Source: a virus
DNA length: 61,396 nucleotides
Virus record (IMG/VR): IMGVR_UViG_3300021433_000004
Location: 1 to 61,396 of that record
Direction: 5' to 3' (one strand)
Positions 12,301-34,996 of the stretch are shown here, piece by piece. The notes below the pieces were generated by a model. It saw only the letters and a program-made list of their open reading frames with translations. It was not told the DNA's origin and did not search any database. Numbering within the stretch: the first letter of the stretch is position 1; each line of letters begins with the position of its first letter. Position numbers and translations under genes: made by a program.

Positions 12301-12317
12301 TGTTTTCTCCTGTGAAT

Positions 12318-12720: not shown

Positions 12721-15700
12721 CTATTGAAGTACGTCCACGTTCAGCGTGTAATTGCCCACCAGAGAAATATTGGCCCCGATACTCAGGCCATCATCCCCAG
12801 CATTTAAGAGCGGTCCTGAAGTCACCGCAAACTGACTGGCCCAGTTTGAAACCGTTGCCGGAATGGAATTGTTGTAATTCACCATGCCGAGAGATGTTGC
12901 CGCGGCATAGAGCTGGGTATGTCCTCCCGGCCAAGTCTGAGTATTGGCCGAGAATCCATAGACCGCGTTGTAATCCCAGATAGGAGCGTTCCAGCAGGTA
13001 TTGATGACGCAAGATGGAGTATTTCCCGCCCCGGTGCAAGAGCCTGTGCAAGATCCCGAGACACTGTATTTCACGCTCGCACTTAACGGTGCGGGAGTCT
13101 GGAGTACGATGTCAGTATTATCCGTGCAGACTGCAATGATGTAATTGATTGAATTGATGGTGATCTGCGTGCCCTGGCCCCAAATCGTGGTGCAAAGGAA
13201 TTGCCCGCCAGACACCCAAGTCACCGTAGTGCCCGAGCCTGTGACGCTGACGTTGCCTGATACCGTACCCGCTCCGCCCGCATTCCCAATCGGAGGCGTG
13301 GAGTTTCCATTGCCAATGATCGAGTCTTTCCAGACCATTCCGTACTGCCCGGAAGGGTTCGTCTGCGGGCCGCCGGTCAAGAGAATGACGCTCTGGTTCT
13401 GACTCAGCCAATCGTTATGGATGAAGTGGATATTGCCCTGAATGAAATTCGGCGTTGAGCTTGTCGCTCCCGGACTGCCTGACCGGATAGCCTGAGTTTG
13501 CTGTGGCACATTGCTGTAACAGGACACGGCGTTCGCCGTCAGATTCAGATAAACATAAGCACACGTCAGGGTAGGCGATCCCAGTTCCGCGATCACATTG
13601 TCATGGAAGATCATCGTATTGCCCTGATAGGCCGTGCCGCCCGTCGTGGCAATTGCGTTCGAGACTCCAAGCCCTACATTTGTATCTGAAGATCGGTTGT
13701 AGCGATAGATCAAGTTCGTAATCTGGGCGCTGGGTGCGATATTGGATTGATCTTTTGGAGTAACGAGTAACGAGGCTCCAAGCTGGTCTACGGTGTTCCA
13801 TGAGTTCGAGCAGACGTTCCCTTCCATCAAAACGTAGCTGCCATTCTTGAACTCGTTGCAGTTCTTTGTCGTGAACGGAAGTCCTCCAGTAGGCAGAGGA
13901 CCGCCGCCATTGTAGGACGAATCCAGAGGATTTTCGGTCAGAGACGTATACTTCCAGTTTCGGCGAATCTCCCAATTGACCGGGAGATACCCGCCAATGG
14001 TCATATCAATGCTTGAGTCCGTGCAGCCGGCGGGAGGGCATACAATCGCTGAAGAAACTGGGAAGGTAAACGTATCGTTCGTGTTCGTTGTCGTCGTGCA
14101 GCAGGTCACGGTCTGGTTTTGATTGATGCCGTTTGAAACCGAGCCTCCGGGCCAGAGGGTTGAGCCTGCCATGAACTGCGTTGAAGTGCCTGAAGGAATA
14201 CCGCAAGTCACCGCGCAAATTCCAGTGATCAGGGCGCTGATTCCCGGAGTCAAAGTCACCTGAGTTAGAAGAAATCCTTGGCCGCCTCCACCAAACAGGA
14301 AGCCTTGATTCGAGGTGCCGAAGAAGTTGTCTACGAGTTTGTACGTGCCGGAATTTGCGTCCGTATTCGTCTGCACTGCCCCGGAGACACAGTGTTCATC
14401 CGAGGCTTCCCCAATGGTGATGTAGCTTTGCAAGTCCCAGCAGAAAGAATCAATCATGGCGATGTGGTCGGTATCGCCAAGCTGAAGCCCTTTGCTGGTT
14501 TCTGCCCAGGTATCGCCCTGAATCATGATGCGATCGAAGATGATGTTATTCACTCCGTTCTGCATCGAGATCATGATGTCCTGCACCGCGTCATTTCCAA
14601 CCACGCCATTGCAGTTATTGTTCGCGTAAGAGTTGCAAATGTTTGGCGTCGGAGAGCCTACGGCAATCAGTTCGCCGCCAGAAGAAGTGGAAGCCGTGCA
14701 AGAACCCCCAGCCTGGGTGTAGCCAAAGGTGAATGACCCCGTGGTCGCCGTCAGGGAAGTCAGTGTTACCGACCCCGAGCTCATGTTAAAGCTGGTATCC
14801 GTCACGCCTGCCACAAAGACTGTTAAACCAGCGGAGGGAACGGGATTCAGAACCTGGCTGAAGGTGTACGTCCCGGTGACTGCACAGCCCGTGGTTCGGG
14901 AGATCGTAGAGATTGTCCCGCCGCCGATCTTGGCCTGGGCGTAAGTCTCATTGTAGGTAAAGTCCGTATCGTCCACCACCGACGCGACAGTGAAGTTCCC
15001 CGGCCCAAAGTGATACAAAGTCTGGGCTACGGATACTTGGGAAGTGAAAGGCGTTGTCGCTACGATATTCACGCCCGAGGAATTTGAACTCAGACTTTGG
15101 TGTGTACTGGTAATTGAGCCTTGCGTCGTTCCATCGCCAATGCCTACCTGCGAGACACAGTTCGTAGCATTGCAGGTGCGGGAATAAACTCCCGGTGTAG
15201 CCGCTGTGGGTTGCGAGGCAAAGGCCCATGCTCCGCCGTCTCGCGCAAAGTCAATTCCTACGAAGCGGATGTATTGCGCTCCGGTCGTGAGTTTCAATCC
15301 TGCCAATCCGCCCGCTCCGGTTGAGTGCGCCAGTTGGAGAATTGGGACAACCTGCTGACAGCCTGAGTTATGCGAAGGGTAGGTAGGGATATTCGGAGCT
15401 GAGGAAATTCCGGCAAAGCACGGGGTAATCCGAGTGCCTTCTGCTGGGATGGCAGCTAGGTCATCCGTCTCAACCGTAATCCAGTTTCCGGCCGAGCCTG
15501 CTGCTGCCCAGGAGATATTGCAGTTCGTTGCTACTAAAGTGTGCAGGACTTGTAAAGTCTGCCCTGCCGCGATCTGAGTAAATCCTCCGGTCCCGGCGGC
15601 GATGTTGTTGATGTCCGAGCAAGATTGCGCGGTATAAGGGCTGCCAGAAACCATGTATAGCCCTGCCGGAGACGGCGTATTCGCAATGGCTGTGTTCATG

Positions 15701-18531
15701 CACGTCTGCGGGCCTTGCGCTACATCGTCATACCCATTCAAGCCGTTAATGGGCTGATTTGTGGCTGAGCAGTAATAATTGTCTGGCCCAGAGGTTGGCG
15801 GGAAGGAAGTCGTGGGCGAGTTCTCGATGATGAAGTTCCCCGAGCCTGATCCTGTTCCTACCGTGCTACCCGCGGTGAATGAAGCCGTTCCTACCGGGCT
15901 ATCGGTCCAGCCGCTCGCCATGCCAATGGCTTTAATTGTCTCGATAATGCTGACGACAATTGAGCCGGAATACAGCGTTCCATGAGAGCATGACCCGCTG
16001 CCGTTGGAAGTCGGCGTAGTGCCGTCCAGCGTGTAGCACATTGCCAAAGACTGAGCCTGAGAAATTGTTACCGTCTGCGGAGGATATCCGCCTACTGGAG
16101 AGAACGTAGGTGCGGAACCTTGGAAGGTGTAGGTGTAAGAAGTGACCGTACTATCCCCGCTGAGACTGGTTCCCGCAATGATCTTCAGAGTCTTGTTAGT
16201 GGCGATTGAGACGGTCCCGCCGCTAGTGAGAGACGTTCCGGTAGTGCATCCCGTTCCTAAGCCATTTGTGGCTGGAGTCGTGCCGTTCGTGGTGTAGCAC
16301 TGCACTGTAGTCCCTGAGTTCGGGTTGGCGCAGGCAGGAGTCTGCGTAGCTGAATACGTTCCGGTTCCCGGCGTGCAGGATGACGGAGCAACGACAGTAA
16401 ACGATGCGGTGGCCGTGGTGCTGCTATCCGTGACGGTAATGGTGCAGGCCGCGCTACCAACGGTCAAAGTGGCCGTGGCGGCGGTATTCGAGGTGACGGT
16501 CGGCGTTGTGATGGAATCCCCCGAGCAGCTTCCGCCGCTGAGAGTAAAGAGTCCTAAAGCCGTTTCCGTGGTCCAGAGCGTATGCACTCCGGTTAGAGTC
16601 AGGCCGGGCGTTGTGCCAGTGTTCCCGGAAGTCGGAGAGATTGCCAGGGTCGCCGTGGCTACCGTGATCGTCGTAGAGATCGAATCCGTAGTATCGGTGA
16701 TCGTCAGGGTTCCCGTACCCGAGCCAGTGGTGATCTGAAGGGTGTACGAGGTCGAGGAAACATTCGCCTTGCTCGCCAGAGAAGTGCCGCTTACACCCGA
16801 GAGACTGAATGCCGTTGCGCTGGTCCAAGACGTTCCGCTGCCTGTGCAGGTTACGGCTATATTGTTCGAGTGGTGCGCCGGAAGAGTGGTCGGGGAGCAA
16901 GTAAAACTCGCAGGAGCAGCGGTGAATTCATAAGCTCCAGCATCCCATGCTCCGCTACTCGGACGAGCATTGACTGTGATAGCGGGACAGCTAGAAATGA
17001 ATCCGCCGCTCCCAGCAACTTCGGCACAGCCTTTTGGCGTACCGCTGCATAGGTCGTTGGTAAAGTTCCCAGTTCCGCAAGTCGAGGTCAGATTGTTGCC
17101 CGCGCCCACCGTCGCATAAGTGCCGCCGCCATTGCCGGGCGAAAAATCATTGGACAAAAGGTAGTTCTGGGTTGTGGCCGTGCCGGTGGTCATGAATATC
17201 TCGCCACCGTTATCGGTCTGCGTTGTGCTGCACGTGGTCTGACTATTACAGGCTACCCAGTTCGAGATCGACGTGAATCCCACCAAATGATTATTCTCAT
17301 ATGAAGATGAAGACCCACTTGCCCATGTACCTGCATGGGCACCGAGTTTGCATGTGCTATCGATTGTGTTCCCGACAACCGTAACAGTGATGACGGCGCT
17401 TGTATTGCCAGAGTTTGGCTCCAGAAGCATGCAGTTCGGATCAGGAGGGAAGTGTTGGTCGTTCTCGAAGACGTTGTTGAAGAAGAGCATGACTGGAGCC
17501 GCGGGATTCCAGTTCTCGCCTTCATTCACATTTCGCGTGATGTTGTTGTAAGCAACGAACTGAGTACTGTTGCCATCGTGCTCTTCCACGTTGCCGTGTC
17601 GGCAGCAAGGACTACCAAATGCAGGCTCCGAAAGAAATTCTAAAAGGTTGTCATGAATCAGCGGGACGTTCCCGACCTGGAGCCCATCCGACAGGTGCCG
17701 GAAGACGTTGTGGTCGATGCTCGCCCAATTCCCGCCCATGGCCCAGCCCGTAGCGCACGTCCCTGGAACTGTGTTAGTGCCATTCCAGCAGGCCGCAATG
17801 CAGGATGATGTAGTGCAGGCTGCGCCGAGAGAAGAATCTTGACCATCAATTACGTTCAGGGTCGCAACATCGCTCGGAGGCGTGGATGAATCACTACTGT
17901 TGAGCATGATCCTGCGATCATCTTGCGCTCCAGTAGCCAAGGTCCATCCGTGGATATACAGATTTGAGAGGATGCGGTGGTTGCCTCCGCTCGTTAGACT
18001 GATGAACTCCACGAAGGATTGCGTAGTCTGACAGTCTCCCGTGAACTCGAAATTGTCGAAGGTGACATAACTGCCAGTGATTGAGAGATAGACAATGGAA
18101 TCATCTGCAAAAGAGCAACTAGAGACCGTCGCCGTACTTAGCGGATTATTGCCGTTGATGATTGGGCGGCACCAGGACGCTCCGCAGACCGAGGAATTGT
18201 CCCACGTTAAATCCACTCCGATGTAAATCACATTGCCACTTGATCCGCTGCGCGTGAAACTCCACGTCCCAATTTGGGGTGAACCCGAGGACTCATTCCA
18301 AGTATCGCCTCCTCTAAAGATGAGCGAATCTCCGGCGTTGATCGTGGTTGATGATGCGAGGCCGGTAGCAGTACTCATTCCCGGAGCGTGCAGCCATGTC
18401 GCGGTTTTACTCGTCCCGGCATTTGAATCCGAGGCATTGCAAGGCGATCCGGTGGCAGCGCACACATAGTATGTCGTCGCGTAAAGTGGCGCTCCCGCCA
18501 GTAGCGCGACAATGAATAGGAGTGTTTTCAT
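12721..18531 (-). CDS. Giant exported beta-helix protein (1936 aa)
   Basis: It has a Sec signal peptide (KTLLFIVALLAGAPLYA). After it comes a first right-handed beta-helix region rich in Asn/Ser/Thr (residues of about 20-540), then a central block of Ig-like and chitobiase C-terminal (CHB_HEX) domains. One of these has APTFSPVGGYPPQTVTIS and MCYTLDGTTP, near residues 820-880. A second beta-helix region runs to the end. Cysteines are very frequent, as in disulfide-rich secreted proteins. Position and architecture suggest a tailspike or adhesin that binds or degrades surface polysaccharide. No catalytic residues can be assigned by eye. Confidence 0.7.
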   Translation of the reverse strand: MKTLLFIVALLAGAPLYATTYYVCAATGSPCNASDSNAGTSKTATWLHAPGMSTATGLASSTTINAGDSLIFRGGDTWNESSGSPQIGTWSFTRSGSSGNVIYIGVDLTWDNSSVCGASWCRPIINGNNPLSTATVSSCSFADDSIVYLSITGSYVTFDNFEFTGDCQTTQSFVEFISLTSGGNHRILSNLYIHGWTLATGAQDDRRIMLNSSDSSTPPSDVATLNVIDGQDSSLGAACTTSSCIAACWNGTNTVPGTCATGWAMGGNWASIDHNVFRHLSDGLQVGNVPLIHDNLLEFLSEPAFGSPCCRHGNVEEHDGNSTQFVAYNNITRNVNEGENWNPAAPVMLFFNNVFENDQHFPPDPNCMLLEPNSGNTSAVITVTVVGNTIDSTCKLGAHAGTWASGSSSSYENNHLVGFTSISNWVACNSQTTCSTTQTDNGGEIFMTTGTATTQNYLLSNDFSPGNGGGTYATVGAGNNLTSTCGTGNFTNDLCSGTPKGCAEVAGSGGFISSCPAITVNARPSSGAWDAGAYEFTAAPASFTCSPTTLPAHHSNNIAVTCTGSGTSWTSATAFSLSGVSGTSLASKANVSSTSYTLQITTGSGTGTLTITDTTDSISTTITVATATLAISPTSGNTGTTPGLTLTGVHTLWTTETALGLFTLSGGSCSGDSITTPTVTSNTAATATLTVGSAACTITVTDSSTTATASFTVVAPSSCTPGTGTYSATQTPACANPNSGTTVQCYTTNGTTPATNGLGTGCTTGTSLTSGGTVSIATNKTLKIIAGTSLSGDSTVTSYTYTFQGSAPTFSPVGGYPPQTVTISQAQSLAMCYTLDGTTPTSNGSGSCSHGTLYSGSIVVSIIETIKAIGMASGWTDSPVGTASFTAGSTVGTGSGSGNFIIENSPTTSFPPTSGPDNYYCSATNQPINGLNGYDDVAQGPQTCMNTAIANTPSPAGLYMVSGSPYTAQSCSDINNIAAGTGGFTQIAAGQTLQVLHTLVATNCNISWAAAGSAGNWITVETDDLAAIPAEGTRITPCFAGISSAPNIPTYPSHNSGCQQVVPILQLAHSTGAGGLAGLKLTTGAQYIRFVGIDFARDGGAWAFASQPTAATPGVYSRTCNATNCVSQVGIGDGTTQGSITSTHQSLSSNSSGVNIVATTPFTSQVSVAQTLYHFGPGNFTVASVVDDTDFTYNETYAQAKIGGGTISTISRTTGCAVTGTYTFSQVLNPVPSAGLTVFVAGVTDTSFNMSSGSVTLTSLTATTGSFTFGYTQAGGSCTASTSSGGELIAVGSPTPNICNSYANNNCNGVVGNDAVQDIMISMQNGVNNIIFDRIMIQGDTWAETSKGLQLGDTDHIAMIDSFCWDLQSYITIGEASDEHCVSGAVQTNTDANSGTYKLVDNFFGTSNQGFLFGGGGQGFLLTQVTLTPGISALITGICAVTCGIPSGTSTQFMAGSTLWPGGSVSNGINQNQTVTCCTTTTNTNDTFTFPVSSAIVCPPAGCTDSSIDMTIGGYLPVNWEIRRNWKYTSLTENPLDSSYNGGGPLPTGGLPFTTKNCNEFKNGSYVLMEGNVCSNSWNTVDQLGASLLVTPKDQSNIAPSAQITNLIYRYNRSSDTNVGLGVSNAIATTGGTAYQGNTMIFHDNVIAELGSPTLTCAYVYLNLTANAVSCYSNVPQQTQAIRSGSPGATSSTPNFIQGNIHFIHNDWLSQNQSVILLTGGPQTNPSGQYGMVWKDSIIGNGNSTPPIGNAGGAGTVSGNVSVTGSGTTVTWVSGGQFLCTTIWGQGTQITINSINYIIAVCTDNTDIVLQTPAPLSASVKYSVSGSCTGSCTGAGNTPSCVINTCWNAPIWDYNAVYGFSANTQTWPGGHTQLYAAATSLGMVNYNNSIPATVSNWASQFAVTSGPLLNAGDDGLSIGANISLVGNYTLNVDVLQ

Positions 18532-19280
18532 TACAAGACCGACGTATTGGGCAAGACCGTAGTTTTTGGAATAACCGTAGCACTTGGAGGTTGCGGCGCG
18601 GCGAAGAATGAAACGGTGTATCCGGTGATTGCCATGCCGGTAGTTATGTTTAGTACTGGCGTATAAGTTGTCGCCGTAGTCACTGATTGATATTCCACTG
18701 CGCCGCTCTGGTTCCCTCCGCTGGCCTGTCCATTGGTCGAGATCGCGTATCCAGTTCCCGCCGTAAACGTATTGTTCGTGGCACCATTCCCGCCGGACGT
18801 GAGCACGAGGTCACCGGCTGCTGTCGTAGTAACCGCAGGCATGGTGCAGGCCGTGCAGCTTGCGATTGAATTGTTGAATGCCCCGACATCGAATGCCGAG
18901 GTTGTCTTTACTCCGGAAAATTCCTGCCCTAGACACACGCAAAAGGTAGTTCCACCCGTGAAGGTCACAGTCGTTGTCACTGTTCCCCCCGCGATGTTTG
19001 TGGCGTAACAATAGAACACGGCATTCGCGGCATGGAGCGTGATGTAGGTATTCGTGCCGTCCGTGCAGGCAACTGTGACCGCCCCGCTGCTGCTGTTATA
19101 TTCCGCGCCAATGATCACAAGTAGGTCGCCTGCCGTCGTGGTGCCGCAGGACACCGTGAGCGACGCCACGTTGCTGCCTTGATTGTTCGGCGTGCAATCT
19201 TTTCGGAAGGCAATTGAGGCGTGCGCGGAGGAAGGCACACAGGCGATTACAAGTAGGGATAACCAGAGGAGTTTCTTCAT
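18531..19280 (-). CDS. Exported fibre-associated protein (249 aa)
   Basis: A Sec signal peptide ends near SSAHA. The mature part is a Thr/Ala/Gly-rich beta protein with several Cys, including repeated patterns TTTAGDLLV and TTAAGDLVL about 110 residues apart. This suggests a duplicated concanavalin or jelly-roll-like fold. It is coupled directly between two giant fibre genes, sharing its first and last bases with their ends. It is probably a structural or receptor-binding partner of the fibres. Confidence 0.65.
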   Translation of the reverse strand: MKKLLWLSLLVIACVPSSAHASIAFRKDCTPNNQGSNVASLTVSCGTTTAGDLLVIIGAEYNSSSGAVTVACTDGTNTYITLHAANAVFYCYATNIAGGTVTTTVTFTGGTTFCVCLGQEFSGVKTTSAFDVGAFNNSIASCTACTMPAVTTTAAGDLVLTSGGNGATNNTFTAGTGYAISTNGQASGGNQSGAVEYQSVTTATTYTPVLNITTGMAITGYTVSFFAAPQPPSATVIPKTTVLPNTSVL

Positions 19281-22200
19281 TACTGGAGCCTCGTCACTGC
19301 TGCACTAAGGGCGTAGGTCGCAGTTCCTGTGTTGCATTGAGAAAAGGTCGTTGCATACTGCACAATAGTTCCGTTTGTGTCGATGTTAAGGTCACCGCTG
19401 GCCCAAGCTCCCAGCGTGGTCGCGCCCCAAAGCATCGTGCCACTTGAGGCAAATCCGGTAAGACTCGCATTGACGGCTGATCCACCAGCTATAATGGGAA
19501 CCGTTTGTGCCGAGTGCGCCGTTCCATTTCCGTCCGTCCAGGTCAGCGAGAAGAGAACGCCGCCAGTAGTGTTAGCAGTGCAGGCCGTTCCTGACTGATA
19601 AATAGCGATATGAACGTGGTATGTCCCAGCCGTATTACAGGCACCAGCCGAGGCCGCGCAAAGCGTTGCCGTGCTCACGCTGGCTACTAGCCCGGTAGAT
19701 CGGATGGCCCCTGGCTGTGCGCGGACCATCGTGCCGTAACTCGTACTGCCGTTCGTCGCAGCCTTCCATTCATGCGAAGTACTGTCGGGGTAAAGGTTCG
19801 ACGTGCCAGAAACGTTTGTAGCCGACGTGCCTTCTGTGGCGCACAACCCACCAGCCGAGCCGAAACTTGTGCAATTCGCCGCGCCAAGCGTTGCCGAACC
19901 TGCCGCAGCAAAGTTCCCCGACGCTCCGAAGCCAAACTCTTTCGTCGCTCCTGAAGTTGAGAACACTCCGTTCGTGAAAGTGCCGAGAGTATAGAAGTCC
20001 GCCAGATCGCCAGCCGCTACCGTCTCGTTCAGGATCAGGGGAACTTGGCCCGTTCCGCCTGCACCTGTGGTGTTAATTCCCAATGCGCCAGAAGTTGTCG
20101 TTGTCGTGTTGGCGTTGGTGAAGACATAAGGATAAGTCAGATTCGCAGTCTCGACGCCTGCCCGAGTCACTTCATGCCCAGTCCCGGTTTCCGTGATTGT
20201 GGTCTGCGCTGCTGATCCCGTGAGTAGACTTTCCGCAAGAGAAACACCTGCCAGCACCCCGCCCGAACTCAAAGTTGCCGTCGCGTCTGGAGTCTGCGAA
20301 GCCTGAGAGCCGCCGCCTGTCATTAGGGCCGTAGAAGTCAAAGATGCTGCGCTGGTCACGCACGTACCGCAGGCAATCGTTCCTGTAGATGTGATCGTCC
20401 CGCCCGTGATCGGCGAGGTTGTGGCAATACTGGTTACTCCTCCGCTACTGGCCGTCTGCGGATTCTGTAGTTGCCATTCCGTGCCATCATAGATCGCATC
20501 AGCGATTGCCGTAGTCGTTAAGTCATTCGCAACCAAGGCCGTAGTTCCCAGCTTGGTGATGCTCTTGGCCGTCAAGCCATTGACTGCGAGCGTTGGGGCC
20601 GCAGCCGTATTCGCCGCCGTGGGGAGCCAGCGTACTTCCACACCAGCGGTCAGGGCTGTGACTGCCGGCGTCAGGGTAGCAGTTTGCGCCTGCGCCGTTC
20701 CCGCGCCAGCTACATAGAAATTCGGGCTGGTGTCCGAGGCTCCAATTAATGCTGCGGCCGGGGCTGCTGTAGAGCCAGTATTATTTCCCCAAAACTGATG
20801 CGCGGTGAAATTGCTGACGATGGTTGAACTGGCATTCAGGACGCAGCCTTCATCGGTAGTCTGAAATATCACATCGAAGCAGTGATTCGTTGCATTCGCG
20901 TACCAGCCATCAGTTCCCGAGGCTCCCGTATAGGCTGTGCCTTCCGCCGCGTCCGATCCGCCAGCCGTTCCTACCGTGGGAGCCGGGGCGGAGGACCCAA
21001 AGAATCCCGTCCCGAGCTGAGTGCTGTTTCCGGCCTTGTCTACCTTCCATTGCGATGTGCCGCCAATCTGCAAATCCTCTAACAGCGATCCAGCGCCCGA
21101 GGCAGTATTGGTGACGTTCTCTAAAATGCCAGCATCGACCGCGCCTGTAGTGTTCCAAACGGGAGTGATCTTTAATGCAGGCAAAGTCTGTGAGCCTGTC
21201 AGAGAGTCAGAAACCAGTAAAGGAACTGCCGTTGATCCCGCTAAGGTGCTGGCAGCTACTTCCACGTCAGAAGTTCCCGTCGCGGCGCTGGTCTCGCCGA
21301 AGGTCATGGCCGTCTGCGAGTTCGTAGTATTGGCGAAATTCATCGTCCATGTATTGTTTCCGTTCGCCAATGTTGTATTCGAGACAAGGGCCGTTACCGA
21401 ACTCAAGGCCGGAGTAGAAGATGCACACGTTCCGCCATTGCACTCGGTAGCATTGATACCGCCAGAACCGATAGCCTGAAGTAAGCCTCCTGTGGTCATC
21501 TGCACGCCATTGGCTGTGCCCCTCGAAGTAATCTGAATCGGGAGGGCAGTAGAGCTAGCTAGCGTTTGCACATTGAATTCAATGTCTCCCGTGCCCGTCG
21601 CGGCCGTAGTTTCTCCAAACGTAAATGCGCTCTGCGAGTTCGTAGTCTGTGCCCAGTTCCAGACTTGCGGGTTATTCCCGTTTGCCAAAGTGTTTGAGGC
21701 GCTAGCCGCCGTCAGGGATGAAAGCGATCCGCCCCCGCTTTGCGCTACGCAATCGCTAGCCTGGGGAGTAAAGACGAAGTTCGCCGTATTGCAGCCCGTC
21801 AAACCTTGAACGAGTGTTGCAACCTGCGATGCGGTCGTTGCAATCAATTGCCGCGAGGAATTAGACCCCAGAAGTCCGGTAGAGGCTGGCACTGCCGCAG
21901 TATTGATCTGATCGGCGCTGACGTGTCCTGTCCCGCTGGCCTTGAAGACACTTCCCGAAGTGAGTACTACGCCATCAACAAGGTTTGTACCTGAATCCGG
22001 TACACCTGCGGTGAAGATCGAAGTCGAGTTCGATTCGCACTTTTCGATGTCAAGATACCCGGCGTTTGGGTTTGTCCCGTAAGTGGTATTCAGGGCAACC
22101 CAGCCGCAATCACTGATCTGCTTGATTGGCGCAGTCCAAGCTAAAGCTGAGGTTGAGCCTTCATAACTCGCGGCGTAAGGGCTGGTCGCATTGTTGACCG

Positions 22201-23893
22201 GGAACAGTAACGCCAGCGGAGGCTGGGAATATGAGCTCCCTGTCTGCCCGCTCCAAGTCCATTGATTCGTGAATGCACTGGGGATGCTGACCGTACCATT
22301 GCCGCCTGCCGTCGAGAAGCCGTTGCCGAACTGCACGGAAGTCGTGCTCGAGCATCCTGCCGTAACCGAAGTGTTATTCCAAGTCAGCGAAGTAGAGCAG
22401 TTTGGCAGAGTGACGGTCTTGAAGACTCCCGCCGTAGAGCCTACGATGATTTGGTTCGCTGCAATCGCCGTCGTGGTTCCTGATCCCGCGCCCGGTATCG
22501 CAGCAATCTGGCCCCAGCCAGCATTCGCTACATCATCATAGAAATTCCCATCCCCGGATACTGCCATGCCTGAATTCCCCGAACCCGTAGCCGCAGGAGT
22601 GCCGGAGCCGGCGATTGGCACGGTAGTCAAATAATAGGGGCCTGTCAGGGTGAACTTTGAGGCAGTGATGCCACCCGAGGGCGTATACGTCAGCGTCGTG
22701 CCATTATCAGAGAGGTTCGGGCTGAAAGCACAATTCCCGGAATTGTTTGTATAAAGAAAATTGCCAATGCTCGGGGCTAGCCAGGTTAAGGAGCTTCCGC
22801 CTGAGCCTACACATGGCACCTGCCCTGCGCCAGCAGACGAATTATTCAGATTCGTAAGAGGCAGCACGAAAGAAGGATTGATGGAGGCAATGATTGCGCC
22901 CGTCGTCGGAGAAATTGTCAGCGAAGTATCGCTATTGGAAACTGAAGTCACTGCCCCATTCGGACAGCCAGAGGTCGTAGCTCCTCCGTTCGCATCCGTG
23001 CAAAGGTTCGAACCCGTGCCTGAAATCGTGCCCGAAGAAAGTAGGTTCGTATCTGTGCCCTGAATAGCCTTGGAGGAGGTTACCGTAGAAGCCGTGGCGG
23101 CAATCGGCACTTGTCCAGTAGTCATGCCAGATAGTCCGCTGCCGCCTCCTCCACTGCCGCAATCCGCGCCCGTAGCGCTGAGAACGCCGGAGGTCTCATG
23201 CACACAGAACGGACCTCCGGTCATGTTTGTAGTCAGGTTCCCAGTAAACGAGCCTGTAGTAAAGAAGCCCGCAGCCGGGGTAGTCCCGCCAATAGTAGGC
23301 GGAGTAGCATAGTTTTGCGTGGCGAAGGTTCCAAATGCCGTGTCATTGGTTTTGGTGCAGGTAACTACGCCGCTCGTCGTATTGATCGTGCAATCGCCTG
23401 AAGGAGTGAAGGCTCCGAAGACTGAACCGGCATTGGTCTGAATCTGTCCCGCCGAGCCTCCGGGGTTATTCGTCCCCCCTCCCCCTCCCCCTCCTCCAAA
23501 GCGTGCAGCAAGGTTTGAAGCAGTCAGCTTTACGACCGCGGTGTTTGTGACCGTATTGCCGCACAGCCGAAACAGCGTAGCGCTGGTGACAAACGATTGA
23601 TAGGTATTGTTGGATGTAATCGTGGCTTGTGATGTGGTTGAGCCGTATGGCGTTACCGTCGTATTCTGCGGGGCATCGCCGCCAATCGCTACTTCGGGCT
23701 GAATCGTCCCGGACCATGCCGATCCGCTGGCGGAATTAGTGATGGAGATACCGACTACACCCTTCCCGGTCACATCGATTTCAACGCAGCCAGAGGCGGT
23801 AATCGTTCCCGTAACTGGAACCGAAGTCTGCGCTCGCGCCATGCCTGCAAAGGCGAGAAGCACAAGAGCAAGTGCCTTTCTGTTTAGATTCAT
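19280..23893 (-). CDS. Exported long fibre protein (1537 aa)
   Basis: The N-terminus is a signal peptide (LALVLLAFAGMARAQ). The protein is mostly short Gly/Thr/Ser beta repeats, with tail-fibre phrases such as TIGGTTPAAGFFT, INTTSGVVTCTKTN and LANGNNPQVWNWAQTTNSQSAFTF, the last pattern occurring twice (near residues 760 and 870). Such repeats are typical of trimeric phage side fibres. Presence of a Sec signal on a fibre is unusual. The likely role is host adsorption. No lyase motif was seen. Confidence 0.7.
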   Translation of the reverse strand: MNLNRKALALVLLAFAGMARAQTSVPVTGTITASGCVEIDVTGKGVVGISITNSASGSAWSGTIQPEVAIGGDAPQNTTVTPYGSTTSQATITSNNTYQSFVTSATLFRLCGNTVTNTAVVKLTASNLAARFGGGGGGGGTNNPGGSAGQIQTNAGSVFGAFTPSGDCTINTTSGVVTCTKTNDTAFGTFATQNYATPPTIGGTTPAAGFFTTGSFTGNLTTNMTGGPFCVHETSGVLSATGADCGSGGGGSGLSGMTTGQVPIAATASTVTSSKAIQGTDTNLLSSGTISGTGSNLCTDANGGATTSGCPNGAVTSVSNSDTSLTISPTTGAIIASINPSFVLPLTNLNNSSAGAGQVPCVGSGGSSLTWLAPSIGNFLYTNNSGNCAFSPNLSDNGTTLTYTPSGGITASKFTLTGPYYLTTVPIAGSGTPAATGSGNSGMAVSGDGNFYDDVANAGWGQIAAIPGAGSGTTTAIAANQIIVGSTAGVFKTVTLPNCSTSLTWNNTSVTAGCSSTTSVQFGNGFSTAGGNGTVSIPSAFTNQWTWSGQTGSSYSQPPLALLFPVNNATSPYAASYEGSTSALAWTAPIKQISDCGWVALNTTYGTNPNAGYLDIEKCESNSTSIFTAGVPDSGTNLVDGVVLTSGSVFKASGTGHVSADQINTAAVPASTGLLGSNSSRQLIATTASQVATLVQGLTGCNTANFVFTPQASDCVAQSGGGSLSSLTAASASNTLANGNNPQVWNWAQTTNSQSAFTFGETTAATGTGDIEFNVQTLASSTALPIQITSRGTANGVQMTTGGLLQAIGSGGINATECNGGTCASSTPALSSVTALVSNTTLANGNNTWTMNFANTTNSQTAMTFGETSAATGTSDVEVAASTLAGSTAVPLLVSDSLTGSQTLPALKITPVWNTTGAVDAGILENVTNTASGAGSLLEDLQIGGTSQWKVDKAGNSTQLGTGFFGSSAPAPTVGTAGGSDAAEGTAYTGASGTDGWYANATNHCFDVIFQTTDEGCVLNASSTIVSNFTAHQFWGNNTGSTAAPAAALIGASDTSPNFYVAGAGTAQAQTATLTPAVTALTAGVEVRWLPTAANTAAAPTLAVNGLTAKSITKLGTTALVANDLTTTAIADAIYDGTEWQLQNPQTASSGGVTSIATTSPITGGTITSTGTIACGTCVTSAASLTSTALMTGGGSQASQTPDATATLSSGGVLAGVSLAESLLTGSAAQTTITETGTGHEVTRAGVETANLTYPYVFTNANTTTTTSGALGINTTGAGGTGQVPLILNETVAAGDLADFYTLGTFTNGVFSTSGATKEFGFGASGNFAAAGSATLGAANCTSFGSAGGLCATEGTSATNVSGTSNLYPDSTSHEWKAATNGSTSYGTMVRAQPGAIRSTGLVASVSTATLCAASAGACNTAGTYHVHIAIYQSGTACTANTTGGVLFSLTWTDGNGTAHSAQTVPIIAGGSAVNASLTGFASSGTMLWGATTLGAWASGDLNIDTNGTIVQYATTFSQCNTGTATYALSAAVTRLQ

Positions 23894-23903
23894 TGAGTGT
23901 CCT

Positions 23904-26900
23904 TTACGGTACTGCGATGGCCGACCAAGTATTGCTCGGGTAACATACGTACAAAACCGTCGAAGCTGAAGATGCGGAACTGTTCGAGTCCAAATCGCCT
24001 ATATTGCAATTGGCTGTAGGAACTCCAGCCGTTTGGGAGAGTGTCATGCCATTGATCGTTACCGGCTGAGTGCTGCTGTAAGTCAAATTCCCCGCCCGGA
24101 GATTGGCCCAAGTGCCACCGGAGATATTGGTGCTCGCAAGGCCAGGATAGCCAGACGTCAGACTGCTATCAGTTCCCGTTAGCGTGAAGCCTTGGGTAAT
24201 GTCCATTGCCGTGATGCTGCTTCCGCTGATCTCCAAGAGCAGATAGTCATTGATGGCACACGGAGTTCCGCCCGATGTGATCGCCGTCGGAGCGCCAGCA
24301 ACATATTTGTAGATCACGCTGGAAGATGCGGCGAGACACAGGAAAAAGTAGCCAGTCTCTGCCGAATTTGACATGCGAACGCCAATGCCGGTGTCAATTG
24401 ATCCCAAAGCGGTAATCTGGGCAACGATATACTGGCTATTGGCGAACGTTGAATTCGTGTAACTGCAGAAGACTTTATTGTCACTGCCGACTGCCAGCAC
24501 CGCAGAACCGCCTGAGATATTGCATGCGGCCCCCGATCCGCCATTCGTAGTCCAGCCTGTAGCCGAGCCAAGAACATTGCTGACTTGCGTACCTGAAAGA
24601 GTGAATGGAAAAGCCACGCCAGCGGTATTTCCTAGAACGGTAAGGTTATTGAAATCCGTGATCGGCGTTTGAAAGAATTTCCCCGCCGAAGTCAGCCGCT
24701 CGCCCCAAGACTTGTTATCGCCCGTATTGGCGATATATTGCGAGATCGCTCCCGGAGCTCCGATGCTCAATTGGGCATTACCCGCGCTGGTTCCTGCTGG
24801 TGAATCAAAGCCCAGATAGACATCGTTCGCATCCCATAAAGGCCTGTGCGCGGCGTTCGCAATTGTCTTGTATGGATTTGAGTCGTGCAAGGTAACGAGA
24901 TGCTGCGGATAAAGTGCCTGCTCGAATCCGAGAAAGTTCAAGCGTCCTTTTAGCTGATCTCCGAGAGGCTGCGTTATAGACTGGCTATTCGGCATCAAGG
25001 TCGCTCCCGAAGCCAATCCGATTGTCTGCCCTCCAGCGGCGAAGCTCATATTGGAAGCCCCAATTGCCACGCCCGGAGTGGGCTGATCCTCATTCAGGGC
25101 AAAGACTTCTAATTGGTTTGGCAGGGTAGTCACATATCCTGCAGCCGTCGATCCCGCTGGCAGGCCGCTATCCGAATACATCAAAGCCCCGCCCCCTAAA
25201 ACAGCCGTGCCGGGGAAGTTCCATAACTCTGGGATTAGGGCTGGATTCGTAGCGACGGTATAGGACTGCAAGGTCGTCGTCGTTGAATCGTTCATCGTGC
25301 AGATATAGGCCGAGCACTGCGCGATGGGCGATGAGGTTAAAGCATTTGTAGCCGTGCCGAATGGGGCCGTTGGCTGCTGGCCTACTGTATTTGAAGTTCT
25401 AAGTACCTGATATGTGACTGTACTCCCTGTCTGGGAAGCATATCGAGGCCAGCCAATAGCATAAGACGCGCTAGAGGTAGGCTGGGCATCGCCAAACCGC
25501 AGAGGCACAGAAGCATTCGATCCGTCATTAATAACGAGCCAGTATTCGTAGTTCGTTGTTCCGCCCGCAGCATTTGAAAAGTTTGGCTCAAAACCCTGCA
25601 AGGAAGGCGAATGTCCATCGGCGGTCTTCGTTAGATAAAGCGGTGCGCTGAATTGCTCCGCACCGGCCGCGCTGATCGAAGACAAGTTCCCAGTAGGAAA
25701 TCCGGCCGCGATCATGAAGGGGTTGTAACACCCTCCGACTTCCTCATAGAGCCCGTCCAGCATCGTAGGCCCGGAAGATCCCCGCAGCGGCCCTGCCGCC
25801 AAACCATACTGGGCAAATCCTTGAATCACCGAGAACCCGGTCATCACCAAACCTTGCCCTGCCAGCCATTTCACGCCATTGCCGAAGCAATTGATGGTCA
25901 TCGAAACATGGCTCAGCGTCCCAAGAGGCGTTCCTGCCGGGCCGCCAGGTCCGTAAAGCACTTGCCCGCAATAATCTGGTCCGCAGTAGGTGCCACCATC
26001 AATATCGCCATTGTCCCAAAGGAAATTCTGATCCCCATCGACAACGATGACGGAATTTAGGAAGTTATGCCCTGCGAATGTCGAGAAATCATAGTAGAAG
26101 TCTCGCAGGGTAACGGAGAAGCCATTGTCCTCAAGAAAGGCATGCTCTGGAGCATTGCCGCCCGGCGTTGAGGCCGTAGCAATGGTTCCCGCTCCCGGCG
26201 TTCCCCCATGCGTGCAATTGTTATCCGTAAACGTCCATTGCGAACTGGAAGAGGTTGCCACCTGATAGATGCCCCAGTAGTGCGGGTTATCGGTCCATTG
26301 AATATCTACCCACCCGCCTACCGGAGGATTCAAGGTCGTCGTGATCGTAGAGACATTGGCCGAGCAGGAAGTCTGCGTAATGGAGGCACCGCTCTGCGTC
26401 GTCTTCGTGAAGGCCCGGATGCCATGAAACACTACATTCGCGGCATTCGTGAAAAAGCACGTATCCCAAATCGCTTCGCAGTCAATCATTGCCCCGGAAA
26501 CGTCGATATCGGCATAGCCTTGCGGAACGTTCACGCGACCGCGAATGACATAAGGCGTTGTTGATGCCGGATTGGATGGCGGAAATACAACATGATACAG
26601 AACACCTACCGCGCCCGTGCCGTTAGTAGCCGCATCCGTGATCGTTTCTTGAATGCCCGAGGAAGCACTCCCAATCGCATAGCCGTTATTGTGCGTGTTC
26701 AGGGGCGTGAAAGTGATCGTGCCCGTTGACCCAGGGACACAGCTTCCTCCGCCGGTCATTTGCACAACTTCCGGCGTGCCTACCCCGAAGATATAGACAT
26801 TTGTTGTCGAGTCACTGCCGAAGATTCCTAATGGACATGGTGCTAGAGTCACCGTTGCGGGCGTGTTCGCTACCAGCCCGCCCGTAGGATTGCGCGACCA

Positions 26901-27515
26901 GTTATAGCTGGGCAAAACGTAGCGAATGTTTGCCAGATTGTTTGCCGAGAAGCTGGTTGCTACGGGCTGCACGATGGGCTGCGTCGCCGAAGGCCCCAGA
27001 GAGACATTCCCCGTTCCTGTCCCGCAGGAAGGGCAGCCAAAGGTATTTCCTGTGAGCGTTAATGGCGAGGCTGCGGTGTAAGTCTGACCGCCTCCGCCAG
27101 TCCCTCCCGGAGTGATCGTAAAAGGTGAGTCCCCGCAGTTATTCTGCACACAGACAGTCAGATCATATGTCCCGGAAGGAATCCAAAACCCTATATTGCC
27201 CTGATTGTCGCCCGTAGGCTGGCAGGCCGAGGGCTGGGGCTGCGGAGTGTCCTGCGAACCATTAGGGCATGCTACGCCGAGCGACGTGTATGTGGTCACG
27301 TAGTTCGTGCAAGGAACCTGATTGGCTGGATGTGCGCACACATGCACGATCGGCGCATTGGGCGGAACATTTGCCACCAGCACTGGAGGATAGGAACTCG
27401 ATACGCTGGGCCAGGAGATATCGACGCGCACATTCTGGGCAAAGGCCGAAATAGCCAGAACGTGCCATACGACCAAAATCAGGGCTGTAGTATAGTGCCT
27501 TCGGAGGAATACCAT
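23904..27515 (-). CDS. Exported tailspike-like protein (1203 aa)
   Basis: ATG 27515 was preferred to an earlier ATG at 27587 because a signal peptide follows it (HYTTALILVVWHVLAISAFAQ). Residues of about 300-700 look like a pectate-lyase-type right-handed beta-helix with many short Asn and Gly turns. The C-terminal 250 residues include a laminin/LamG-like segment and a short repeat tail. It probably acts as a receptor-binding or polysaccharide-degrading spike. It shares start-codon bases with a divergent plus-strand gene. Confidence 0.7.
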   Translation of the reverse strand: MVFLRRHYTTALILVVWHVLAISAFAQNVRVDISWPSVSSSYPPVLVANVPPNAPIVHVCAHPANQVPCTNYVTTYTSLGVACPNGSQDTPQPQPSACQPTGDNQGNIGFWIPSGTYDLTVCVQNNCGDSPFTITPGGTGGGGQTYTAASPLTLTGNTFGCPSCGTGTGNVSLGPSATQPIVQPVATSFSANNLANIRYVLPSYNWSRNPTGGLVANTPATVTLAPCPLGIFGSDSTTNVYIFGVGTPEVVQMTGGGSCVPGSTGTITFTPLNTHNNGYAIGSASSGIQETITDAATNGTGAVGVLYHVVFPPSNPASTTPYVIRGRVNVPQGYADIDVSGAMIDCEAIWDTCFFTNAANVVFHGIRAFTKTTQSGASITQTSCSANVSTITTTLNPPVGGWVDIQWTDNPHYWGIYQVATSSSSQWTFTDNNCTHGGTPGAGTIATASTPGGNAPEHAFLEDNGFSVTLRDFYYDFSTFAGHNFLNSVIVVDGDQNFLWDNGDIDGGTYCGPDYCGQVLYGPGGPAGTPLGTLSHVSMTINCFGNGVKWLAGQGLVMTGFSVIQGFAQYGLAAGPLRGSSGPTMLDGLYEEVGGCYNPFMIAAGFPTGNLSSISAAGAEQFSAPLYLTKTADGHSPSLQGFEPNFSNAAGGTTNYEYWLVINDGSNASVPLRFGDAQPTSSASYAIGWPRYASQTGSTVTYQVLRTSNTVGQQPTAPFGTATNALTSSPIAQCSAYICTMNDSTTTTLQSYTVATNPALIPELWNFPGTAVLGGGALMYSDSGLPAGSTAAGYVTTLPNQLEVFALNEDQPTPGVAIGASNMSFAAGGQTIGLASGATLMPNSQSITQPLGDQLKGRLNFLGFEQALYPQHLVTLHDSNPYKTIANAAHRPLWDANDVYLGFDSPAGTSAGNAQLSIGAPGAISQYIANTGDNKSWGERLTSAGKFFQTPITDFNNLTVLGNTAGVAFPFTLSGTQVSNVLGSATGWTTNGGSGAACNISGGSAVLAVGSDNKVFCSYTNSTFANSQYIVAQITALGSIDTGIGVRMSNSAETGYFFLCLAASSSVIYKYVAGAPTAITSGGTPCAINDYLLLEISGSSITAMDITQGFTLTGTDSSLTSGYPGLASTNISGGTWANLRAGNLTYSSTQPVTINGMTLSQTAGVPTANCNIGDLDSNSSASSASTVLYVCYPSNTWSAIAVP

Positions 27516-27804
27516 GAAAACCTTAGTTTTGATTCTGGCGCAATTGGCGGCCAGTGGAAGTGATGCGTACTTCACAGACCGAAACATGCATCAGAGGCAG
27601 TTCGTTGAATATGATCCCATTGCCAAACCGTTCACTCACAGCCGCCCTGCTTTCATTGCCGCATCTTCGTTCGGATGCGGAGTAGAAATCGTGATGCCGC
27701 GCCTGCTGCACAAGCGCAATCCGCGATTATCTTTGCTGATGTCAGGCACGGGTATAGCCGCTAGTGGTTTCGGAGCCATCACAAGCGCAGATCGCACTCG
27801 TTAA
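27514..27804 (+). CDS. Lone plus-strand exported protein (96 aa)
   Basis: This is the only plus-strand gene placed within about 45 kb of leftward genes. ATG 27514 has a strong GGAGGAATACC ribosome site. The protein has a signal peptide or membrane anchor (TLVLILAQLAASG), a segment with DAYFTDRN and EYDPIAKPFTHSR, and a second hydrophobic stretch near the C-terminus. Similar short proteins (DA-x-x-T-x-x-x-L, NP-x-A-x-PF) occur in acidobacterial genomes. It fits a moron, a gene added to a late operon and expressed separately. The function is unknown; envelope alteration is a guess. Confidence 0.65.
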   Translation: MKTLVLILAQLAASGSDAYFTDRNMHQRQFVEYDPIAKPFTHSRPAFIAASSFGCGVEIVMPRLLHKRNPRLSLLMSGTGIAASGFGAITSADRTR

Positions 27805-29168
27805 TGGAAATTGCAGACGTAATACCATGTGTAGGTCGTCGTATTTGCCAGCGCAGAAGATGTGGATAATGTCCAAATTGTGCCTGTAGCTCCCGTGACG
27901 TAAATATCGGCTGCTAATGCCGCCGTCGTCGCTCCGTTCGGGGCGAATACGCAGGCATTTGAATTGTGCGTCCCCCCGAAAGTAACGGTAAAGATTAGGC
28001 CGGAGGTAGCACTGCCTCCAGTCGTTACCTGAATGACTCCGTTATTATCGAAGCAAGCCCCTACTGAGACACAAGCGGCCGTTCCCCCGGCTCCCGTTGC
28101 CGCCCCTGGGACTACCGAGGCGATCGCGGTATATCCTAAAAGCGAAGGTGGGGTTTGCGGCCTGAATTCAGGGCCGAATAGATCGACGGGCTCTGGTCCA
28201 ATGCCGCTTGCCATGACGATCCCGAGAACTTGTCCGCCTCCCGTTCCTGAAGTAGTCGAGAGAGGGTACGTTGCTCCCGCATCTTGGCACCAGCCAGCAA
28301 CGGAGGTATTGATAGTTACATAATCGCCTGCCGTCGTGCCCCCGCCAAAGGTGCAGGACGCAGGCCCGCTTTGCTGAATCGTGGCCGTACCGGTAATCCC
28401 AGCCCCGGCTACTACGATCCCTATAACTCCGCTCGTAGCGCCAGCGGGAGTGATTGTTGCCGTAGAGGGTGCACCCGTGAGACTTGCCAAAGCTCCGAGT
28501 ACAGTAGCTGTCACAGAATTATTGGCGATGCAAGCGTAGGTTCCCGGCCCGTTCTCTACGCCGCAGCCATTTATTTCCGTACCGCTCGTAAGATTCTTGT
28601 TGGTAAGATTCTGCGTTGCATTCTGGGTAACCAGTGTGTCATTGCCCGTGAGCGGTGGAGTATGCAGGATGTAATTTGCCGATTGCGGAATGACATCCAA
28701 AGTAGTCTGTGTACCCGAAGGCGATCCGAATACCAATTGGGAATCGGTTTCTGCAAAGAAAGTTTGGGCATCAAAGGTCTGCGATAACAGCCATGTATTT
28801 GCCGTGCCGAGAAGCGATTCATTCACTGCATTGACAGTCAGAATTGTTTGCCCGCTGGAGCAGTTTGTCCCGCCAGAAGTCTTTACGACGATGGAATACA
28901 GAGCGTTATTGAGATACCAGATATTCGCCGTTCCGCTGGCACTCAAAGGCACCGGATTTGGGTTTAGAATTGATCCAGTGTAGTCAGTGTATGTAGGCTG
29001 CGGCGTCGTCGAGTTCGTGTTATACGTGAATACACAGCCAAAAGAGTTAGGCTGGCCGTTCGGCAGCAGAGACACGAACTGCGGATACTGACCTAAGGCA
29101 ACACTCTGTGAGTGCGCGAAGCTCGCCGCGAACAAAAGTAGCGCAAAGATTGGAAGCCGTTTGTTCAT
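27801..29168 (-). CDS. Exported fibre-like protein (455 aa)
   Basis: It has a signal peptide (RLPIFALLLFAASFAHSQ). The N-terminal 130 residues match a common phage tail-fibre head (YPQFVSLLPNGQPNSFGCVFTYN and YTDYTGSILNPNPVPLSASG). The middle holds ENLTNKNLTSGT-like fibre phrases and a Gly-rich beta region, and the C-terminus is a small compact beta domain. It is probably a fibre or connector attaching the larger spikes. Confidence 0.7.
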   Translation of the reverse strand: MNKRLPIFALLLFAASFAHSQSVALGQYPQFVSLLPNGQPNSFGCVFTYNTNSTTPQPTYTDYTGSILNPNPVPLSASGTANIWYLNNALYSIVVKTSGGTNCSSGQTILTVNAVNESLLGTANTWLLSQTFDAQTFFAETDSQLVFGSPSGTQTTLDVIPQSANYILHTPPLTGNDTLVTQNATQNLTNKNLTSGTEINGCGVENGPGTYACIANNSVTATVLGALASLTGAPSTATITPAGATSGVIGIVVAGAGITGTATIQQSGPASCTFGGGTTAGDYVTINTSVAGWCQDAGATYPLSTTSGTGGGQVLGIVMASGIGPEPVDLFGPEFRPQTPPSLLGYTAIASVVPGAATGAGGTAACVSVGACFDNNGVIQVTTGGSATSGLIFTVTFGGTHNSNACVFAPNGATTAALAADIYVTGATGTIWTLSTSSALANTTTYTWYYVCNFH

Positions 29169-30748
29169 CGCTGCGACCCCTCAATGGCAGTTTCCAGTTC
29201 ATGCCCGTGCTGCCATTCTTCATCGGAAATCGAATCCTCGGGGCTGATGACTGGTTTCACTGGCACGCGCTTCCCGTTCACTACTTTCGCAACCAGCGTG
29301 GAGTTCTGCCGCAGCGTGTTCCATGCCTTGCCCTTAGATGAAGCTGATTCAAAGGCCGCCGCTTGTTCTGGGCTCACGTCGCCATGGATGTAGTGCGCCC
29401 CGGTCTGCGTCACAGATTCAAACTCCTGCGTCTGGGGGTCGTATTTGAATGACTTTAAGGCCGAAGACTCTACCGGGATATGCCCTGCCGGAAGGTCCGA
29501 GGGTTTCGCTCGTTTGGCTGCTTCCTGCAATTGCTGGCTGAGAGTCCATTCGGGATGCTCGGATTTTACTTGCGCCATAATGCCCGTATCGCGCGATGCT
29601 CCCGCTGCGGTCCCTGCCGTCTGTTTTGGCGTTACAATCCCTTGATTCTTTAATGGCACGTTCGGCTCCAATTCCTTCCCACCCAAGCCCTGGTTCAGCA
29701 AATCGCCCAGTTTGGCAATGTTATTCGCTCGTTCGGTGAGTTCCGAAAGCGAAGTCTTTGGGCCTAACTCCTGCAATGCCTGATTCACGGCCTTTGGAGG
29801 CAGTTCCATGATGGTTTTATTCGGGATAGACGCAAGAGCATCAGACTGACTGGCGGCTGGCTTTGCGCCCTCCGCCAAGGCGTTTCCCTGAATCAGTTCA
29901 GGGGCAGGAGCCTCGGGCTGCGTAGCGGGCGCATTTGTGCCCTTGCCGCCGAATATCGGCTGGTTAGCCCGCTCTGGCCCTAAAACCCCTTCTGCGAGGC
30001 CACCGCCCGTTTTAGCGCCATAGTAAGCACCGGGGGCAGACAATGTGCCATGCCCGAGTCCTGCCCCTGTAGCGGCTCCTAATGCTTGCCCTGCCTGCTT
30101 TGGCGTAACGTTCTGGACGGTCCTCGTCACATCTTCCAGGGAGGGTGCCGCTGCAGCTACTTCCCCAGCAGCCCTCGTTGCTCCTGCCGTAGCCGCTGCT
30201 ACTGCCGGGACCGTCACTGCACTGCCAATGACCTTCCCCGGATTCCCTTCTTTTGCCGCTTGCTCCTGCTGGGCTACCGGATCGCCGATCATTTCCATGG
30301 CCGATGCGCCCAGATCATACAAATGCCCGTGTTCTTTCACGCGCTCGGCACTCTGAGCATCCTTCGCCGCCGCCTGCTGCGAATACAGTTTCCATTTTTC
30401 ATCATCCGACAAGGGAGTGCTGGTATCGCCCAGCATCTTAGCGATTGGCGAGCCTTGCGCCATGGGATCAGGGGTAGCTAAGGCTTTCGGGATTCCCGTG
30501 ATATTGTCCCAGAGAGTTTTCCCGGCCTCTTTCCACCAAGGTGCAATCGGTTGCTCCGAAAGTGGCTGCACCTTTGCCCCCGCCTTCACAGCATCCAAAT
30601 ACCTGTCCGCTGGCACGACTCCCGGCGTCCCGTCTGGGGCGGTGATATGCACTCCGGGCTTGGCTCCAGCGCCAACCGCCGCTTGCAGTTTGTCAGCGGG
30701 AATATCGCCCAAAGTCCCGTCAGGCGCGAATATGGGTACTGTACTCAT
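29165..30748 (-). CDS. Putative ejection (internal virion) protein (527 aa)
   Basis: The N-terminus holds two tandem copies of a short domain: PDGTLGDIPADKLQAAVGAG and PDGTPGVVPADRYLDAVKAG. I recognise these from large phage internal proteins. A long Ala/Gly/Pro-rich helical middle follows and may insert in membranes (residues of about 165-250), then a charged C-terminus. Position, next to two other helical Gln/Ala-rich proteins upstream of the fibres, suggests one of three P22-like DNA ejection proteins. No lytic transglycosylase motif was seen. Confidence 0.65.
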   Translation of the reverse strand: MSTVPIFAPDGTLGDIPADKLQAAVGAGAKPGVHITAPDGTPGVVPADRYLDAVKAGAKVQPLSEQPIAPWWKEAGKTLWDNITGIPKALATPDPMAQGSPIAKMLGDTSTPLSDDEKWKLYSQQAAAKDAQSAERVKEHGHLYDLGASAMEMIGDPVAQQEQAAKEGNPGKVIGSAVTVPAVAAATAGATRAAGEVAAAAPSLEDVTRTVQNVTPKQAGQALGAATGAGLGHGTLSAPGAYYGAKTGGGLAEGVLGPERANQPIFGGKGTNAPATQPEAPAPELIQGNALAEGAKPAASQSDALASIPNKTIMELPPKAVNQALQELGPKTSLSELTERANNIAKLGDLLNQGLGGKELEPNVPLKNQGIVTPKQTAGTAAGASRDTGIMAQVKSEHPEWTLSQQLQEAAKRAKPSDLPAGHIPVESSALKSFKYDPQTQEFESVTQTGAHYIHGDVSPEQAAAFESASSKGKAWNTLRQNSTLVAKVVNGKRVPVKPVISPEDSISDEEWQHGHELETAIEGSQR

Positions 30749-32574: not shown

Positions 32575-32576
32575 GA

Positions 32577-34658: not shown

Positions 34659-34996
34659 GAGTGCCCCACGACGTACCATGCCGTCCCATCAGACTTGAAC
34701 TTCACAAAAGAATACTGTGCGGTCAAAGTTTGCGGCCCATCCGCTGCCCCGGTGATCGTCGCTGCATTCGCATCAGACGACACCTTTTTGTAGGTTAGTT
34801 CTGAATTTTGGTTTGTCTGCCCTGTAGTGCCAATCAATCCTGCTGCGGGAAGCGGAATGGAGTCAGCGCCCTTGGAGCTATCGATTGTGATCAGCGGAGA
34901 TGCCTGCTGCGTTTCCAATTCCCAATATTGCATCTGATCGGAAATGTTTGAGTTTCGCAGGGGTGGCTCGCGGCGAACTGTTTGCGTAACTGACAT
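34655..34996 (-). CDS. Hypothetical tail-module protein (113 aa)
   Basis: ATG 34996 overlaps the gp10-like stop (TGATG). The C-terminal half has a beta-rich ending (YSFVKFKSDGTAWYVVG) like those at the tips of tail or head decoration proteins. No signal peptide is present. It is probably a small structural component, but its family is not recognised. Confidence 0.55.
   Translation of the reverse strand: MSVTQTVRREPPLRNSNISDQMQYWELETQQASPLITIDSSKGADSIPLPAAGLIGTTGQTNQNSELTYKKVSSDANAATITGAADGPQTLTAQYSFVKFKSDGTAWYVVGHS

Follow-up and report, generated by a model that had tools for sequence, protein, structure and literature searches.

Predicted Sec signal peptides on the tail spike, fibres and capsid-adjacent protein of a probable P22-like phage of Acidobacteriota

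The window analysed here, i.e. the whole stretch of 61,396 bases, is an IMG/VR virus record whose structural cassette, of the P22 type, lies on the minus strand. The genes are arranged in the order terminase (47991-49475), portal, scaffold, coat protein, hub protein gp10, three injection-type proteins and a fibre block (Table 1). The hub protein matched phrog_578 with E=1e-80, whereas portal, scaffold and injection proteins were named by their position and the gene order of Xanthomonas phage PBR31, in which portal, scaffold, coat, hub, three internal proteins and spike follow each other as in the window; gp4 was named from its position alone. Among whole genomes, the coat-protein profile found matches only in Acidobacteriota, namely in three metagenome-assembled genomes and the cultured strain Acidicapsa dinghuensis. 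The cassette also contains a GNAT acetyltransferase gene (33986-34480, minus strand), and an acetyltransferase is likewise annotated in the structural region of PBR31 and of phages Tunturi 1, 2 and 3. A 164-aa protein with CxC...CGC motifs, encoded among the injection genes (33482-33976, minus strand), is likely a mobile endonuclease.

Table 1 Features of the structural cassette and fibre block in the window (SP, signal peptide; HBD, head-binding domain; a slash marks the predicted cleavage site).
Feature	Position	Strand	Remarks
Major capsid protein, P22-type	40155..41396	-	phrog_283; without SP
Capsid-adjacent fibre/decoration-like protein P0007, 303 aa	39224..40135	-	SP 40067-40135, ...VTGFA/QQQ
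gp10-like head-closure/tail hub protein	34996..36528	-	phrog_578; without SP; docking partner of P22 spikes
Three injection-type proteins (527, 609, 302 aa)	29165..33485	-	without SP, without Cys
Tail spike/fibre 1, P0001, 455 aa	27801..29168	-	SP + HBD + beta-rich fibre, 10 Cys
SP of the 455-aa spike, residues 1-20	29109..29168	-	MNKRLPIFALLLFAASFAHS/Q; missing from SP-less reference spikes
Tailspike HBD of P0001, residues 22-116	28821..29105	-	Cys45 + Cys103; profile and structure matches
Fibre 2, P0002, 1203 aa	23904..27515	-	SP 27438-27515, ...AISAFA/Q; Cys-rich N-domain
Fibre 3, P0003, 1537 aa	19280..23893	-	SP 23831-23893, ...GMARA/Q; 28 mature Cys
Fibre-associated protein P0004, 249 aa	18531..19280	-	SP 19218-19280, ...SSAHA/S; 8 mature Cys
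Giant fibre P0005, 1936 aa	12721..18531	-	SP 18478-18531, ...APLYA/T; 60 mature Cys; Fn3_assoc/CHB_HEX_C domain
He_PIG (Ig-like) protein P0006, 131 aa	12318..12713	-	SP; 4 mature Cys
Additional SP protein, 213 aa	9821..10462	-	MKKLALLAVWLALPWALLA/QA; 2 Cys

N-termini were scored with a home-made, rule-based scheme (not SignalP) that considers a positive n-region, a hydrophobic h-region and small residues at positions -3 and -1. The first-pass annotation had proposed signal peptides on six consecutive tail-module products and on the decoration-like protein at 39224-40135. All seven ORFs were recovered in place, each with a Sec signal peptide and scores of 7.4-11.4; the capsid-adjacent protein, starting at the ATG at 40135, shows the same trait as the tail proteins, and the 1203-aa form of fibre 2 starts at 27515 inside a 1227-aa ORF. 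An eighth protein, absent from that annotation, scores within the same range (213 aa, Table 1). Only these 8/65 called genes reach a score of at least 7, representing 7/10 genes of the fibre block and the one that follows the coat gene (hypergeometric P = 1.3e-6). The proteins display the features of type I Sec substrates (positive n-region, hydrophobic h-region, AxA-type c-region), and the residue following the predicted cleavage site is Q in most of them; in the search for Tat signals, no twin-arginine motif was seen.

Wrong start codons or hydrophobic helices that are not signals could in principle mimic this pattern, and GTG/TTG starts and gene overlaps do occur in some relatives. However, the scheme has null rates of about 1-3%, scoring 5/669 internal start codons and 117/3600 composition-preserving shuffled N-termini, and the signal-bearing genes of relatives are conserved over dozens of records, mostly with an upstream Shine-Dalgarno sequence. 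A clear Shine-Dalgarno sequence is missing ahead of the 1936-aa gene. In the gene of the 455-aa spike, the first in-frame starts beyond the annotated one lie at codon 12, inside the signal peptide, and at codon 32, inside the head-binding domain. As no start codon is located between signal peptide and docking domain, the objection that the true start lies downstream is removed for this gene, and an artefact is the explanation to which we give the least credence of all. On the plus strand, an ORF at 8837-9250, not retained among the called genes, encodes a 137-aa protein with a signal peptide and six mature cysteines, followed by two small lipoprotein-like frames (LTGC, MLGC) ending at 9522 and 9776; judged by their sequences, these may be exported accessory proteins beyond the tail block.

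Pfam and PHROGs searches of the fibres gave almost no matches, and therefore position and structure were used instead. The cysteine-rich N-domain of P0002 is conserved in relatives, each of which has a signal peptide, and found no match in isolate phages or in the PDB. P0004 allows an alternative reading with a possible lipobox (VIAC). One piece of P0005 is common to gp17 of the cultured phage Tunturi 1; HMMs of two docking domains had no match in the Tunturi 1 fibres, and homology is thus claimed for this one shared piece only. Two further minus-strand frames border these genes: a 128-aa Tlde1-domain (L,D-transpeptidase-like) protein (phrog_24118, 10459-10845), directly upstream of the signal-peptide gene at 9821-10462 and possibly a lysis or wall enzyme, and a small holin-like membrane-protein frame (MNKFTALLKKWWPSILTVLAALATAL..., 12106-12390), which adjoins the fibre block.

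The 455-aa spike reveals most clearly where the leader is placed. Residues 22-117 of P0001 align with the N-terminus of spikes from Vibrio, Shewanella, Thalassomonas, Xanthomonas and environmental podophages. In 8/8 reference phage spikes inspected, the head-binding domain follows directly after the initial methionine, and the 20-residue excess of P0001 is the signal peptide; the leader was thus added to a real virion protein. A profile HMM of this domain matched the solved spikes of Pam1 (7eeq, E=1.8e-8) and Pan3 (9vyg, 3e-7), and an AlphaFold model of P0001 (pLDDT 77) gave Foldseek matches to the spike domains of Pan3, Pam1 and P22. Similarly, the head-binding domain of the Acidicapsa prophage spike is 47-49% identical to the signal-less spikes of PBR31 and ctNMl, and this match starts directly after the prophage signal peptide. 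Used in nucleotide-pattern scans, neither P0001 nor the 527-aa injection protein retrieved relatives, whereas gp10 and the coat protein did. Altogether, mature P0001 is a canonical P22/Pam1-type spike with a Sec leader put in front. A leaderless N-terminal head-binding domain, which is typical of such spikes without strictly defining them, is missing from the precursor and would be present after the predicted cleavage.

These observations bear on the possibility that the proteins are exported yet stay attached to the cell, whether infected or lysogenic, or are released from it, acting as adhesins or in receptor masking without being virion parts. Such a role would suit the signal peptides, which are real, resemble those of the host and occur in prophages, and also the He_PIG and Fn3-type domains, which are frequent in secreted proteins. 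However, P0001 combines a docking domain for the tail hub with a gp10 partner and the normal spike place after the injection proteins, as in PBR31, and the window contains no second gene with a spike docking domain. The first-pass annotation had suggested surface-displayed spikes secreted before lysis. Its export part is supported, but incorporation into virions is a likelier outcome than lasting display, and we consider a purely cell-surface function unlikely.

The gene following the coat gene points in the same direction. In at least 61/73 capsid-related soil loci (strict rules), this position is taken by one homologous, signal-bearing family, which also argues against a cell-surface role. 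Outside these loci, L087 and probably L086 have a signal peptide with an unusual start, and a minority of the 73 loci carry a different, signal-less 150-aa gene instead. The N-domain of P0007 is a phage structural domain that also occurs in solved tail-tip proteins (8vjh, E=5e-10). In its model, the C-terminal half forms a tentative C1q/TNF-like knob; the model matches phage collagen-like fibres and has only weak C1q/CBM-like matches in the PDB. A search of the isolate-phage collection with P0007 returned no relatives. The signal-peptide score was at least 6 in 36/36 aligned family members and at least 7 in 35, although identity is only 27% in the signal-peptide columns compared with 42% in the mature N-domain. 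When neutral substitution was simulated to equal divergence, 1.3% of the signal peptides were retained. It follows that the signal character of the leader is being maintained.

The cysteine content of the mature proteins provides a further line of evidence. The many cysteines noted in the first-pass annotation are borne out, as they account for 2.5% of residues in mature signal-bearing proteins versus 0.62% in signal-less structural genes. Mature cysteine counts of the eight window proteins are 2, 4, 60, 8, 28, 26, 10 and 8, i.e. even in 8/8. With the capsid-adjacent family left out, counts are even in 46/53 signal-bearing proteins with cysteine (P=2e-8), compared with 275/522 signal-less ORFs (275/475, a mild even excess, if only ORFs with two or more cysteines are counted). 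Two or more cysteines occur in 22/25 signal-bearing head-binding domains versus 0/10 signal-less ones (P=1.6e-6, Fisher), and five further signal-less spikes also have no pair in this domain. These proteins share ancestry, so that independence is lower than the parity and Fisher P values imply and both are optimistic. On the tree of the head-binding domain, the signal-peptide label requires four changes and is clustered (0/500 shuffles as low). The usual pair is GC(V/L)F..GGxNC; the signal-bearing domains of L121 and L122 have none, and pairs placed elsewhere in L119, L136, L145 and L146 suggest that such pairs were gained repeatedly. These patterns support cysteines in the mature proteins that are compatible with disulfide formation in an oxidising compartment.

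An uncleaved hydrophobic N-terminus, which either anchors the spikes in the inner membrane during assembly or becomes part of the virion, would have a precedent in the uncleaved SAR signals used by some phage proteins. Yet AxA/Q-type ends are retained while the rest of the leader drifts, signal-less homologues begin exactly at the mature residue, and cysteine pairing requires the domain to be outside the cytoplasm. We therefore regard an anchor as improbable, slightly more so than a cell-surface function.

The trait is not unique to the window phage but clade-wide. Among the collected relatives, 25 cases of a signal peptide on the spike head-binding domain were found; the docking domain is encoded in 16/21 large soil records, nearly all with a signal peptide, and record G420 has none on either the spike or the capsid-adjacent gene. 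Spikes in Acidobacteriota genomes carry the signal peptide in L117-L119, L121 and L122 and have none in L123. The cultured Tunturiibacter phages Tunturi 1 and 2 each have five such genes in the tail block. Signal peptides are not mentioned in the paper describing the Tunturi phages (PMC11924767). Tunturi 3 and 4 and the fibres of Tunturi 5 are without signal peptides, and acidobacterial phages consequently do not need the Sec route. In record G413, a cassette of signal peptide and docking domain is repeated three times in tandem, about 500 bases apart (25951-27313; L142/L150/L152), twice in short frames, which suggests spike exchange by recombination.

Outside this clade, the structural genes of P22 and X14 have no signal peptides, while PBR31, P26218 and phiAX1 have one accessory signal-bearing protein each, indicating that the trait exists sparsely elsewhere. 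These proteins of Proteobacteria phages are PBR31 orf035 (L128:24674-25483), with a match to phrog_11393 tail fiber, phiAX1_440 (L133:26418-27383) and P26218 gp24 (L130:15489-15998), and resemble the window proteins in combining a signal peptide and an even cysteine count within the structural block. Unlike in the window, however, the spikes with head-binding domains of PBR31 and P26218 are signal-less, their signal-bearing proteins being single accessories. The trait may thus extend beyond Acidobacteriota.

It had also been suggested that host adhesin genes were acquired. This found no support for the spike and the N-domain of P0002, which occur in 4/396 and 1/396 Acidobacteriota genomes, respectively; several of these spots adjoin cysteine-free proteins resembling phage injection proteins. 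In its strongest form, the idea states that the spikes were taken whole from secreted host adhesins, with the signal peptides as mere relics. The domains of P0005 and P0006 are indeed typical of secreted bacterial proteins, and these two proteins (1936 and 131 aa; Fn3_assoc, CHB_HEX_C, He_PIG) may contain a host-derived part. However, the spike domain is that of the P22/Pam1 spikes, and the signal peptides are under purifying selection and hence not relics, leaving wholesale capture highly improbable.

Taken together, Sec export of the spike and fibre proteins is well supported by sequence evidence, and the idea of a different assembly mode via Sec gains ground from the conserved signal peptides, the leader ahead of a canonical tailspike domain and the cysteine pairs tracking the signal peptide, while we infer the docking step. 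Heads, portal, gp4/gp10 hub and injection proteins, all without signal peptides, would assemble and package DNA in the cytoplasm. Only proteins that lie on the outside and join last (spike, long fibres and the knob next to the capsid) would be directed by their signal peptides through the inner membrane, to be cleaved at AxA/Q by signal peptidase and to form disulfides in the periplasm. Spikes and knobs would then dock onto finished heads once lysis breaks the membrane barrier. P22 spikes and the Dec protein of phage L bind completed heads in vitro, so that oxidised spikes accumulated in the periplasm could attach to heads upon lysis. No dedicated mechanism bringing long trimeric fibres to the heads before dilution was found. 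As a whole, we consider it probable that the window virus is a P22-like podovirus of Acidobacteriota and that its signal-bearing proteins are genuine virion proteins, made as Sec precursors that acquire disulfides in the periplasm and attach to completed heads upon lysis; cell-surface function, membrane anchor, captured adhesin and artefact each account less well for the docking domain, the place of the leader and the cysteine pattern. We favour somewhat more cautiously a strict division into two compartments, with filled heads in the cytoplasm and all host-recognition parts leaving it through Sec to be oxidised and kept in the periplasm, so that no infectious particle would form until both pools are brought together by lysis.

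In the standard view, tailed phages assemble entirely in the cytoplasm, and we know of no textbook tailed phage that exports, oxidises and adds its spikes late. Should Sec indeed carry spikes and surface knobs, a branch would have to be added to the current assembly scheme, spike maturation would fall under host Sec and Dsb, which would be host factors for virion infectivity, and a signal-peptide annotation would be no reason to rule a gene out as encoding a structural phage protein. If the two-compartment arrangement applies, it would permit spikes hardened by disulfides and suited to soil. The combination of signal peptide and paired cysteines is a simple sequence mark that may help to link uncultured soil phages to Acidobacteriota hosts, and Tunturi 1 and 2 and the prophage of the cultured A. 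dinghuensis make the question directly testable.

With P22-type tailspikes, P0001 shares the N-terminal docking domain by HMM and fold, the genomic place and the gp10-like partner, but the signal-less P22, Pam1 and Pan3 spikes (PDB 1lkt, 7eeq, 9vyg) start at the head-binding domain and have no cysteine pair, whereas P0001 has a signal peptide first. Like P0007, the Dec protein of phage L is a product proposed to join the outside of finished heads; it has no sequence match to P0007, whose signal peptide and putative C1q/TNF-like knob are new. Sec-exported phage endolysins exist (PMC6116005), and our literature search, mainly of openly readable papers, found signal peptides for phage endolysins and the lysis-associated esterase PBR31 gp40, but none for tail spikes. 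Lys44 of fOg44 and the SAR endolysins are phage lytic-cycle proteins using Sec, as proposed for the window spikes, but they are lysis enzymes, whereas the window proteins are predicted virion adsorption proteins.

Filamentous phages offer a parallel among virion proteins, as pIII and pVIII carry Sec signal peptides and pIII, like the window spikes, also has cysteines, there forming disulfides. Filamentous phages, however, assemble at the membrane and are extruded, whereas the window encodes a tailed phage with a DNA genome and a head of the P22 type.
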